This document shows positions 6,056-34,368 of a DNA stretch of 64,000 bases, in pieces. Each line of letters opens with the position of its first letter. Position 1 is the first letter of the stretch. The notes beneath the pieces were generated by a model, which saw only the letters and a list, made by a program, of their open reading frames with translations, searched no databases and was not told where the DNA came from. Source of the stretch: Brachyspira suanatina (GTDB lineage Bacteria > Spirochaetota > Brachyspiria > Brachyspirales > Brachyspiraceae); assembly GCF_001049755.1 (NCBI RefSeq), contig NZ_CVLB01000001.1, positions 806,001 through 870,000 on the forward strand, given 5' to 3'. Position numbers and translations under genes: made by a program.

Positions 6056-6086
6056 TAAAAAAACCTATGCAATAAATGCATAGGCT
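6056..6086 (-). terminator. Terminator of the first small-protein unit
   Basis: CCTATGCA and TGCATAGG (6064-6071 and 6077-6084) form an 8-bp stem, followed on the minus strand by a T run. It sits about 20 bases after the stop codon of the 36-residue gene. An almost identical hairpin follows the second small gene. Confidence 0.85.
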
Positions 6087-6104
6087 TATGGGAAAAAATA
6101 AAGC

Positions 6105-6215
6105 TTATTCTTCTACATTTTCTATTATGTCGTTATATTCGTTGATTAATAAATTATATTCTTCATCATCTAATAAAATACAATCATTATTCAAACTGTT
6201 TAATAATCTGCTCAT
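6105..6215 (-). CDS. Small acidic protein of 36 residues (paralogue 1), unknown function
   Basis: The start codon at 6213-6215 is preceded by AAGGAG at ideal spacing, and the frame ends at 6105. The protein has about eleven acidic residues, one Cys, and a central LLDDEEYNLLINEY segment that looks amphipathic. There is no signal peptide or membrane helix, so it does not look like a classic hydrophobic type I toxin. The second small gene (6441-6554) encodes a clear relative, sharing L-N-x-L-N, a Cys at position 14, DDE/NDE-x-Y-x-LLI-x-EY and a final EE. Own promoter, leader hairpin and terminator make it a self-contained unit. I do not recognise the family. Conservation between the pair is the main argument that it is translated. 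Confidence 0.75.
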   Translation of the reverse strand: MSRLLNSLNNDCILLDDEEYNLLINEYNDIIENVEE

Positions 6216-6259
6216 GTAAATCTCCTTCTTTCATTCATAAATAAACCTTAATTTTTTAT

Positions 6260-6336
6260 GTGATATATTAAGTTTATATTGTAGTTCATTATCACGATTT
6301 GTACTAATAATATAAGAAATTAATATATAAAGGCAA
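6260..6336 (-). promoter_or_regulatory. Promoter and leader hairpin of small gene 1
   Basis: On the minus strand TTGCCT (6331-6336) and TATATT (6309-6314) are 16 bases apart. The predicted leader then contains GTGATA (6290-6295) and TATCAC (6260-6265), which can pair. The second small gene has the same layout, with the same GTGAT/ATCAC arms. Confidence 0.6.
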
Positions 6337-6390
6337 GAAGTTTTTTATATTGGTTTTAATAAATAATTTTATATAGATAAACAAGAATAA

Positions 6391-6420
6391 TAAAAAAGCC
6401 TATGCATTTATCGCATAGGC
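6391..6420 (-). terminator. Terminator of the second small-protein unit
   Basis: GCCTATGC (6398-6405) and GCATAGGC (6413-6420) form a perfect 8-bp stem followed by a minus-strand T run. It separates the two small units, so they are transcribed independently. Confidence 0.88.
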
Positions 6421-6440
6421 TTAAGGAGAAACAAATAATA

Positions 6441-6554
6441 TCATTCTTCTATATATTTCCTCATTATTTCATAATATTCGCTTATTAATAGCCTATAATC
6501 TTCATCATTTAAAAAGTTACATTCTTTATTTAATATGTTGAATAATTTAGTCAT
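6441..6554 (-). CDS. Small acidic protein of 37 residues (paralogue 2), unknown function
   Basis: The ATG at 6552-6554 follows a full AAAGGAGGT Shine-Dalgarno site, one of the strongest in the window. The product resembles the 36-residue neighbour in length, in the Cys at position 14 and in the NDEDYRLLISEYYEI core, but it has more basic residues near the C-terminus. No signal peptide, membrane helix or known motif is seen. It has its own promoter and leader hairpin upstream and its own terminator downstream. Partial protein similarity combined with conserved layout points to an older tandem duplication under selection. The function is unknown, and peptide, regulator or RNA-plus-peptide roles all remain possible. 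Confidence 0.77.
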   Translation of the reverse strand: MTKLFNILNKECNFLNDEDYRLLISEYYEIMRKYIEE

Positions 6555-6595
6555 AATAGACCTCCTTTTTCATCATAAATAAATTTAAATTTTTA

Positions 6596-6674
6596 TGTGA
6601 TGAACAAGTTGTATCTTGTAATTAATTATCACAAGCATCTATTAATAATATAATAAATTGTGTAATAAATTCAA
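6596..6674 (-). promoter_or_regulatory. Promoter and nested leader hairpin of small gene 2
   Basis: TTGAAT (6669-6674) and TATATT (6647-6652) are 16 bases apart on the minus strand. The leader contains outer arms TGTGAT/ATCACA (6628-6633 with 6596-6601) and inner arms ACAAG/CTTGT (6615-6619 with 6604-6608), giving a nested stem-loop about 40 bases before the Shine-Dalgarno site. Apart from this and the terminator at 6816-6849, the 319-base gap 6555-6873 shows only AT-rich sequence. Confidence 0.6.
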
Positions 6675-31801: not shown

Positions 31802-33034
31802 TTAATTATTATAAGTTATCTCTTTTCCTATATAATTGTCAGTGAATTTGCCATTATTATATACTATATTTCCGCGTACTATAGTAGTTAAAACTTTTCC
31901 GCCTCTTTTGAAACCTATATAAGGCGACCAGCCTGCTTTAGTAATTATATCTTTTTCTTCTATTTCTGAATTATCATTTAAATCTATTATTACTAAATCG
32001 GCATCGTAATTTTCTTTTAATAAACCTTTATCTTTCATAGAGAAAATTTCAGCAGATTTTTCACTCATGATTTTTGTAAGTAATTTTAAATCTATAGTAT
32101 TATCATTAACTTTTTTGAGCATTAATTCAAGAGAATGTTCAACAGAAGGAACTCCGAATGTAAGTTTTTCTAATTTCTCGCTTATCAAATGAGGAGCATG
32201 ATCTGTTCCTATTGTATCTATAGTGCCGTCTAATATTGCATCCCATAATGCTTTATTGTCTGATTTTTCTCTTAATTCAGGCTTCATTCTAAGCAGCATT
32301 TTATTTCTATCATTTTTATTTACATCTTCAGTATTTAAAAATAAATGATGAGGAGTAGCTTCTCCGTAAATTATCATTCCAGAGTCTTTTGCTTTCCTTA
32401 ATGAATCAATTTCGCTTTCAAGTGATAAATGGCATAAATATAATGGAGTATTAGTATTTTTTGCTATTTTTATTGCCTTATCAACCATTTTATCTTCAGC
32501 ATGAACAGTAACTATTTTTGATGCTTCAAATAATTTTTCTAATATTTTATCATCTTCTACAAGCATATTTCCTGTAGATGCATTAAAGAATATTTTTGTA
32601 GATGCTGCATCATTGATAATATTTTTTATATCATCGCTGTTATCTGCTTTGCTTCCTCCAAAATGAAAGCCGTAATCTACATAAGATTTTCCAATCATCA
32701 TAGATTTTTTTGAAAGTAAATTTTCTTTTGAAATAGTGTTTGGTACAGTATTAGGCATATCTAAAAATACTGTAACACCTCCTCTGGCACAAGCTTTACT
32801 TCCTGAATTAAAATCTTCTTTATGTGTAAGTCCAGGATCTCTCATATGTGTATGAGGGTCTATTATTCCTGAAAGCACATAATTGTAATTAGCATCTATT
32901 ATATCATCTGTTTTATTATCAGATATATATTTTTCAAAGTTATTATCATAGTCTATATTTTTTATTTTTTCATTTTCTATTATTATAGAAACTATTTTTT
33001 CATTATTTGGAATTTTAGCATTTTTGATTATCAT
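31802..33034 (-). CDS. pyrC: Dihydroorotase
   Basis: The 410-residue protein has the amidohydrolase metal site SGIIDPHTHMRDPGLTHKED (about residues 55-74), later HAEDK and LCHLSLESE with metal-binding histidines, and IGTDHAPH near residue 275. The length and order match the class I (PyrC/AllB-like) dihydroorotase. It cyclises carbamoyl-aspartate in pyrimidine synthesis. It starts 16 bases after pyrB ends, so the two consecutive pathway enzymes are co-transcribed under the pyrB leader. The start site AGGT is weak, which suggests translational coupling. Confidence 0.93.
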   Translation of the reverse strand: MIIKNAKIPNNEKIVSIIIENEKIKNIDYDNNFEKYISDNKTDDIIDANYNYVLSGIIDPHTHMRDPGLTHKEDFNSGSKACARGGVTVFLDMPNTVPNTISKENLLSKKSMMIGKSYVDYGFHFGGSKADNSDDIKNIINDAASTKIFFNASTGNMLVEDDKILEKLFEASKIVTVHAEDKMVDKAIKIAKNTNTPLYLCHLSLESEIDSLRKAKDSGMIIYGEATPHHLFLNTEDVNKNDRNKMLLRMKPELREKSDNKALWDAILDGTIDTIGTDHAPHLISEKLEKLTFGVPSVEHSLELMLKKVNDNTIDLKLLTKIMSEKSAEIFSMKDKGLLKENYDADLVIIDLNDNSEIEEKDIITKAGWSPYIGFKRGGKVLTTIVRGNIVYNNGKFTDNYIGKEITYNN

Positions 33035-33050
33035 AATTTACCTGAATAAT

Positions 33051-34130
33051 TTATTTTCCTATTTCTCTGTTACAGTAATAACAGAAATCTCCATAACCTT
33101 TCTTTACAACTCTATTTTTTGTTTCCTCAAAATGTGTAACGCATTTATTATTAGGACAAACTATTTCTTTATTTTCTACAACTTCATAGTTCATTTCTTT
33201 TCTTTTTACCTTAGGTTTTATAGCATCTGTAGCCAAAGCCATCATAGCCATTCTTGTAGGAACACCATTTCTAGCCTGTATAAAATATTTAGCGTATTTT
33301 GTATCATCTAAATCTATATTAATTTCATCAACTCTTGGAAGAGGGTGAAGTATTATCATATCATCTTTACATTTTCCAACAATATTGTCTTTTGATATTC
33401 TGAATGCATGTTTAACTTCTTCATATTCATTGATATCATCAAATCTTTCTCTTTGTACCCTAGTCATATATAAACAGTCTATCTCTTTCAATACTTCTTC
33501 ATAATTACTAAGTTTTTTATATTTTATATTTGCATTATCTAATTCTTTTAATATATAATCAGGTATTTGTATAACATCAGGAGATATAAAATAGAACTCA
33601 CCATTAAACATCATTAAACCATCAACTAAAGAGTGAACAGTTCTTCCGTACCTTGTATCTCCTACAAAAGCAATTTTTTGGTTCTCTATAGTCCCTAATT
33701 CTTCTCTCAATGTATATAAATCCAATAAAGTTTGACTAGGGTGTTCGTTAGCACCATCTCCAGCGTTTATTATAGGACAGTTTGTAACTTCTTCAGCAAA
33801 TTTAGCAGCCCCGTCAATACTATGCCTCATAACTATAATATCTGAATAGGCAGAAACCATAATTATAGTATCTCTTAAAGATTCTCCTTTTTTTATCGAA
33901 CTTTGATCCGGGTTATCAAATCCTAACTCTTTGCATCCCAATCTGTAAGCAGCTGATGTGAATGATAATCTTGTCCTTGTAGAAGGTTCAAAGAATATAC
34001 TTGTCATTATCATTCCATCCATTAATTTTCTTCTTTCTCTACTATCAGTGTTATCCAACTCCTTAGCTACATCTAATACTTCGATAACTTCCTCTTTTGA
34101 TAACTCTTTAATAGATATAAAGTTCCTCAT
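33051..34130 (-). CDS. pyrB: Aspartate carbamoyltransferase with fused PyrI-type zinc domain
   Basis: The 359-residue protein has the carbamoyl-phosphate site FEPSTRTRLSFTSA (about residues 51-64), HPSQTLLDLYTL and LHPLPRVDEI, the standard PyrB core (about residues 1-308). The last 40 residues contain Cys325, Cys330, Cys350 and Cys353 (CX4C-X19-CX2C), matching the zinc domain of the regulatory chain PyrI (CX4C-X23-CX2C in E. coli), but the nucleotide-binding allosteric domain of PyrI is absent. The zinc domain normally forms the contact with catalytic trimers. It is preceded by AGGGAG and by a leader with a peptide frame and terminator. Confidence 0.94.
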   Translation of the reverse strand: MRNFISIKELSKEEVIEVLDVAKELDNTDSRERRKLMDGMIMTSIFFEPSTRTRLSFTSAAYRLGCKELGFDNPDQSSIKKGESLRDTIIMVSAYSDIIVMRHSIDGAAKFAEEVTNCPIINAGDGANEHPSQTLLDLYTLREELGTIENQKIAFVGDTRYGRTVHSLVDGLMMFNGEFYFISPDVIQIPDYILKELDNANIKYKKLSNYEEVLKEIDCLYMTRVQRERFDDINEYEEVKHAFRISKDNIVGKCKDDMIILHPLPRVDEINIDLDDTKYAKYFIQARNGVPTRMAMMALATDAIKPKVKRKEMNYEVVENKEIVCPNNKCVTHFEETKNRVVKKGYGDFCYYCNREIGK

Positions 34131-34160
34131 TATTTCTCCCTTAAAAAATAGTTAATTGTT

Positions 34161-34310
34161 TTATTGAAATTTAGCATAAAAAAAAGGAATAAAATTGTTA
34201 AAGATAACAACTTTATTCCTTTTTAAAAAATTCCAAATTATTAAATTTAAATAAATAGAATAGGCGTGCAAATAAAAAATTATCTTGTATTTAAGAAACA
34301 TGTTTTTCAT
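34161..34310 (-). CDS. Putative 49-residue pyrB leader peptide overlapping the attenuator
   Basis: On the minus strand an ATG at 34308-34310 follows AGGAT with seven bases of spacing. It opens a 49-residue frame that runs through the whole terminator hairpin and stops at 34161-34163, 30 bases before pyrB. The peptide is rich in Phe, Ile, Leu, Tyr and Asn, reflecting U-rich RNA, including a T6 stretch just ahead of the hairpin. In E. coli a 44-codon leader (pyrL) overlaps its attenuator in the same manner, and translation coupled to UTP-sensitive RNA polymerase pausing prevents termination. The similarity is in layout, not in sequence. Translation here is inferred. Confidence 0.6.
   Translation of the reverse strand: MKNMFLKYKIIFYLHAYSIYLNLIIWNFLKRNKVVIFNNFIPFFYAKFQ
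34181..34224 (-). terminator. Attenuator terminator in the pyrBC leader
   Basis: AAAAAGGAATAAAGTTGTTA and its partner (34205-34224 with 34181-34200) form a 20-bp stem with one G-U pair and a four-base loop, followed by T-rich sequence. It lies about 50 bases upstream of pyrB and inside the leader reading frame. No plus-strand gene reads toward it, so it acts on the pyrBC transcript. Confidence 0.85.
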
Positions 34311-34340
34311 TTTTTATCCTATTCTTTACAAATTGAACGG

Positions 34341-34368
34341 ATTATATCATGTATATTAAAAAAAGCAA
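34341..34368 (-). promoter_or_regulatory. pyrBC promoter
   Basis: On the minus strand TTGCTT (34363-34368) and TATAAT (34341-34346) are 16 bases apart. The predicted start near 34334 gives a leader of about 200 bases, enough to contain the leader peptide and attenuator. Confidence 0.75.

Follow-up and report, generated by a model that had tools for sequence, protein, structure and literature searches.

Attenuation at pyrL and UTP-dependent slippage at transcription start sites are textbook cases of pyrimidine gene control from enterobacteria. In E. coli, 49% of pyrL requires U, and at low UTP the polymerase pauses and the coupled ribosome blocks the hairpin (PMC10135430); coupling across pyrL has also been described in a separate report (PMC5021804). 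UTP-dependent reiterative transcription occurs at pyrBI, codBA, upp and carAB, and slippage requires an uninterrupted T run, with a stronger effect where A is the first base (PMC6245113). In Brachyspira suanatina, the pyrBC operon is encoded on the minus strand of the 64-kb stretch of DNA analysed here (the window, 48 genes), and we put at roughly 0.8 the probability that its leader controls transcription by translation-coupled, UTP-sensing attenuation in the manner of E. coli pyrL-pyrBI. A preliminary description of this locus had proposed the pyrL-pyrBI layout, and all features of that layout that can be tested in sequence were found here and were conserved across the genus. Brachyspira, which includes animal pathogens, belongs to another phylum than E. 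coli, and its operon is pyrBC, sharing pyrB with pyrBI of E. coli and Salmonella and having no separate pyrI.

Anatomy of the pyrBC leader

The anatomy of the leader was read directly from the window (all positions on the minus strand), whereas its start site is a prediction. The promoter (34341..34368) consisted of a -35 element TTGCTT (34368-34363) and, after a 16-nt spacer (16-17 nt across the species read), an extended -10 TGATATAAT with the hexamer TATAAT at 34346-34341. CCGTTC separated the -10 from AATTTG (34329..34334), the predicted initially transcribed sequence (+1 to +6) and a candidate UTP-dependent reiterative start; with +1 at A34334 the leader would measure 204 nt, matching the roughly 200 bases proposed earlier, compared with 156 nt in E. 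coli. The same AATTTG follows TATAAT at the start of E. coli pyrBI, where the sequence compared reads TATAAT-GCCGGAC-AATTTG. Spacing from -10 to start was 6 nt, one less than the 7 nt of E. coli, so that transcription could also begin at the second A (AUUUG). As at E. coli pyrBI, carAB P1, codBA and upp (PMC6245113), a run of three U directly follows the initiating purines. In several species (L018, L020, L025, L026, L033 and L035), a near-identical stretch, AAGGAATACC...ATGTGCAATATCTATGGCTCTTAAACA, stood directly 5' of the pyrBC promoter; it was also seen near contig ends, was absent from the window and is probably a repeat or mobile element.

The ribosome-binding site and 49-codon frame of the preliminary description were both present: AGG (34320-34318) stood 7 nt before the ATG of a frame (34161..34310) encoding MKNMFLKYKIIFYLHAYSIYLNLIIWNFLKRNKVVIFNNFIPFFYAKFQ, which begins at +25, compared with +19 in E. 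coli, both systems having a short 5' end. Folding and column pairing placed the ribosome-binding site in a predicted hairpin with AGAATAGG (34318..34325) as 5' arm and CCTATTCT (34257..34264) as 3' arm. Within the frame, a U-rich stretch, ATTTTTTATTT ... GGAATTTTTT (34225..34282), forms a candidate UTP-sensitive pause region 5' of the terminator. The U-rich tract claimed at this place was borne out, as T made up 45% of the leader frame 5' of the terminator and a mean of 31% (sd 4.4%) of 657 same-length coding windows from five neighbouring genes, none of which was as high as the leader.

As proposed, a 20-bp terminator with a T tail lay within the frame. This predicted intrinsic terminator (34178..34224), the putative attenuator, comprised a stem at 34224-34181 with a 4-nt loop and a T tail to 34178. 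It began at +111, compared with +108 in E. coli, and in both systems a U-rich frame runs through it; the Brachyspira stem is long and A/U-rich, whereas that of E. coli is short and G/C-rich. Its predicted free energy was -21.5 kcal/mol (z -8.98 against shuffles), that of the segment from +1 to the terminator was -40.1 kcal/mol (z -6.1), and it was both the strongest intrinsic terminator in the window and the only one that closely preceded a start codon while being distant from any same-strand gene upstream. Elsewhere in the window (6060-6600, minus strand), two tandem paralogous genes encoded proteins of ~36 aa, MTKLFNILNKECNFLNDEDYRLLISEYYEIMRKYIEE and MSRLLNSLNNDCILLDDEEYNLLINEYNDIIENVEE, each followed by a terminator of its own.

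The terminator and the end of the frame were separated from pyrB by a short gap, as a pyrBI-type plan expects; a predicted ribosome-site hairpin and this short gap are common to both systems. The pyrB ribosome-binding site GGGAG (34136..34140) was conserved in the alignment and preceded the ATG at 34130 of pyrB (33051..34130), an aspartate carbamoyltransferase (TIGR00670) with a PyrI-like metal-binding tail at its C-terminus; the second gene of the operon was pyrC (31802..33034), encoding dihydroorotase. No Pfam or NCBIfam family matched the leader peptide over cut-off. Its dissimilarity to PyrL, noted earlier, held in that no alignment to PyrL was obtained at E<=100, so neither this search nor Pfam gave a sign of descent from PyrL; the Brachyspira leader is probably convergent with the pyrL type, with no sequence relationship between them.

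Conservation of frame, terminator, start sequence and hairpin

Of 26 Brachyspira genomes, 24 had full-length pyrB (the draft assemblies G003 and G013 had weak transcarbamoylase matches only), and the leaders of these 24 species formed the genus comparison, in which frame, terminator and start sequence were directly seen to be conserved. Ribosome-binding site and start codon kept a fixed distance genus-wide, with the ATG at +24 to +26 in 23 species and at +32 in the remaining one. In all 24 species the frame was open into the terminator arm; over the first 30 codons, none of 600 neutral simulations (on the leader tree rooted at the window sequence, whose frame is open from the outset, with substitutions only and without indels) gave 24 open frames, the mean being about 2. 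Counted from the first base of the terminator 5' arm, the stop codon fell 7-93 nt downstream in every species, and even a ribosome terminating there would still overlie the arm. It lay inside the stem or loop in six species and in some others beyond the T tail, overlapping the pyrB start in two; in L032 the frame ended at the first bases of the arm, and the weaker ribosome cover this implies counts against attenuation. The peptide was hydrophobic and its N-terminal half was conserved within clades, while its C-terminal part varied freely and its length ranged from 31 to 64 codons. The end of the frame drifts and the overlap stays, so the trait that is kept is overlap with the terminator and not the end of the peptide. 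The preliminary description would have been contradicted by a conserved stem with an unconserved frame; the frame proved to be conserved up to the terminator in 24/24 species, whereas the part after the terminator was not conserved.

A terminator helix of 17-20 pairs (-14.8 to -23.5 kcal/mol) was present in 24/24 species and was the only structure recovered by RNAalifold from the whole leader. Compensatory stem changes, suggested earlier as a check, were found among the Brachyspira leaders at five pairs, each changed on both sides. No upstream segment paired consistently with the terminator 5' arm, which left no candidate for a conserved antiterminator; a pyrBI-type attenuator needs none. Within the U-rich stretch, the motif AATTTGGAATTTTTTAAAA was nearly invariant among species.

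The start sequence was constrained as well. AATTT[AG] occurred 6 nt after the -10 in 23 of 24 species, with TATTTA in the remaining one, giving a predicted transcript 5' end of AAUUU[G/A]. On a tree built from these same leaders, AATTT (+1 to +5) changed once, compared with 26 changes at the six sites before it, 24 at the six sites after it and five in the -10 hexamer; in a control, the Brachyspira pyrK promoter, the eight bases after the -10 were not conserved. At least three T directly followed the initiating purine at the predicted start site, as a reiterative start demands, and the first base is A, as at E. coli pyrBI. The AAUUU start is a predicted slippage site and probably provides a second, UTP-dependent layer of control.

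Pairing was predicted between the leader AGG, often together with the ATG, and a segment lying 40-60 nt 3' of it, the probability of a paired ribosome-binding site being 0.69-1.00 in 22/24 species; the two most distant species had a weak hairpin or none. Its arms differed by clade (AGAATAGG/CCTATTCT, AAAATAGG/CCTGTTTT and TAGGAAATA/TATTTTCTA), and as clades use different registers for the helix, it was tested apart from RNAalifold. Column counts showed 83% of cells paired, compared with about 38-55% once the partners were slid. Both sides had changed in four pairs, a number reached by 13 of 500 shuffles, so that covariation supports the hairpin moderately. A like fold was predicted for the E. 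coli pyrL leader, GGGAGGA pairing with UCUUCCC.

A model for UTP sensing and its alternatives

When UTP is plentiful, the polymerase would pass quickly across the U-rich leader, the ribosome would lag or never load because its site is soon buried in the hairpin, the 20-bp terminator would fold and transcription would end before pyrB. When UTP is scarce, the polymerase would stall in the U tracts, giving a ribosome the opportunity to initiate on the leader frame, close up behind the polymerase and occupy the terminator 5' arm, which would block folding and allow pyrBC to be made. As the ribosome would have to load before the 3' arm of its hairpin is made, a slow polymerase would be needed and loading itself may be UTP-sensitive. 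High UTP at the AAUUU start would in addition lead to slippage and abortive poly-U transcripts. Pausing, termination and the UTP response are, like the start site, deduced from sequence features. New relative to the preliminary description are the AAUUUG start, the hairpin over the ribosome site, and the carA and pyrKDFE leaders described below.

In a different account, PyrR loaded with UMP or UTP would bind the leader RNA and tip the choice between antiterminator and terminator towards the latter, and the frame would be incidental. A PyrR family protein scored over the NCBIfam cut-off in 22/26 Brachyspira genomes, PyrR attenuators likewise sit before pyr genes, and a leader terminator of pyr genes together with a PyrR gene is common to Brachyspira and the B. 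subtilis-type systems (RF00515). However, no RF00515 element exceeded the cut-off in the 26 genomes, while two controls did, and none appeared in the leader even at a relaxed threshold. The Brachyspira leader also differs from PyrR attenuators in having a conserved translated frame (24/24 species), for which PyrR control would have no need, and in lacking an antiterminator, the terminator 5' arm being without a conserved upstream partner; the PyrR gene adjoins a fliL-like gene (L046, L047), not pyr genes. We consider PyrR control of this leader quite unlikely, although the presence of a PyrR protein in most Brachyspira genomes counts against translation-coupled attenuation. The missing antiterminator also bears on amino acid attenuation of the trp/his type, in which stalling at certain codons would pick between alternative hairpins. 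Such systems share with this locus a leader peptide and a terminator, and Phe, Ile, Leu, Lys and Asn codons are many here, but the U-richness of the sequence accounts for them and the residues are not fixed among species, making this mechanism highly improbable.

It is very unlikely that the terminator is a constitutive partial one and that the frame encodes a small functional (membrane) peptide, without UTP sensing. Its hydrophobicity and the within-clade conservation of its N-terminal half would suit such a peptide, but drift in C-terminus and length, with terminator overlap kept, argues against a function of the peptide itself, and the same geometry occurs at carA and pyrKDFE with unrelated peptides. 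Control could also be confined to initiation, through reiterative transcription at AAUUU, with the leader merely adding a weak constitutive terminator. A conserved frame running into the terminator would then be left unexplained, as would carA, whose promoter has no AATTT start; a start sequence constrained as much as the -10 box speaks for this possibility, to which we assign only a minimal chance.

We found no report joining Brachyspira to pyrB or to leader-peptide attenuation of pyr genes in a literature search that mostly did not extend to subscription papers, so an earlier report is possible. The full combination, in a spirochaete genus that encodes PyrR and with no sequence relationship to the enterobacterial leaders, suggests that polymerase and ribosome can readily be recruited anew for UTP sensing. 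Leaders of this kind have neither a common sequence nor an Rfam model, and may therefore be overlooked elsewhere. The leader offers insight into gene control in a genus with animal pathogens, as well as clear predictions for transcription-translation coupling in spirochaetes.

Leaders of other pyrimidine genes in and outside Brachyspira

A gene-by-gene survey of the regulon directly showed recurrence of the arrangement at other pathway genes. The carA leader (L131-L152), unrelated in sequence to that of pyrBC, contained a frame (MIWKKFKLKKILRKMQFLIILKRLEIDFQLISNLFFILNKNLKKI in G000) that in 22/22 genomes stayed open into a terminator with 15-18 pairs and stopped 7-72 nt after the terminator arm began. 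In most carA leaders there was also a small CUGC-GCAG hairpin (GUGC-GCAC in L138), a possible pause hairpin, with U-rich RNA on its 3' side. The carA promoter had no AATTT start and its start no U run, unlike E. coli carAB P1. A leader peptide is likewise mentioned for Pseudomonas aeruginosa carA (PMC4997734). A second conserved possible hairpin, TCTAAA-TTTAGA, was located 3' of the carA terminator, and carA did not exceed its family cut-off in G001, G002, G019 and G021, though pyrB was present.

At pyrK-pyrD-pyrFE (L159-L178), a terminator preceded pyrK in a leader unrelated to the other two. In all 14 species examined, the ATG of its short frame came precisely 8 nt after the -10 hexamer, which predicts a leaderless or nearly leaderless pyrK transcript, and the frame often ended 7-25 nt before the terminator arm, which makes ribosome cover less certain. 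One clade was without the pyrK leader because pyrK directly follows another gene. A promoter of its own for pyrE was considered and rejected, as pyrE was directly behind pyrD with no leader; its open frame (452-484 aa, L103-L128) had an OMP decarboxylase-like N-terminus, MTKLTENPKERLIIALDFNS, and is a probable pyrF-pyrE fusion. No known Rfam leader was detected at the carA and pyrK loci or in the pyrBC leader of the window.

The odds appear about even for a broader proposal, that Brachyspira and some other spirochaetes have a repressor-free pyrimidine regulon in which the unlinked pyrBC, carA and pyrKDFE each evolved a translated-leader attenuator of its own. The pyrKDFE frame would be leaderless or nearly so, pyrBC would have two further elements, an AAUUU start liable to slippage and a hairpin through which ribosome loading itself becomes the UTP timer, and PyrR would be encoded but unused here.

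Among 40 Spirochaetota pyrB upstream regions outside the genus, a terminator was absent from most, and that of L075 stood 3' of an HU-like gene. In four genomes of another spirochaete order (G026, G050, G075 and G087; L070, L071, L077 and L179), pyrB was preceded by a short U-rich frame that ran into a terminator, and the close genomes G026 and G087 kept both frame and terminator. In some of these regions the ATG was again 8-9 nt after the -10.

Fusobacteria were tested as a source of the leader because the nearest non-Brachyspira PyrB occurs there. Inheritance of the leader with pyrB was rejected, as L011, L012 and L014 had no such leader; a single fusobacterial genome (L013) had one possible frame, ending in a terminator loop. 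The closest non-Brachyspira PyrB was that of a Fusobacteriaceae MAG (L011), in an alignment that included the C-terminal tail, and matches in members of the same spirochaete family were much more distant. This tail (33051-33170 of the window, minus strand) resembled the PyrI metal-binding domain (PF02748, E 0.004, below cut-off) and came without the PyrI allosteric domain.
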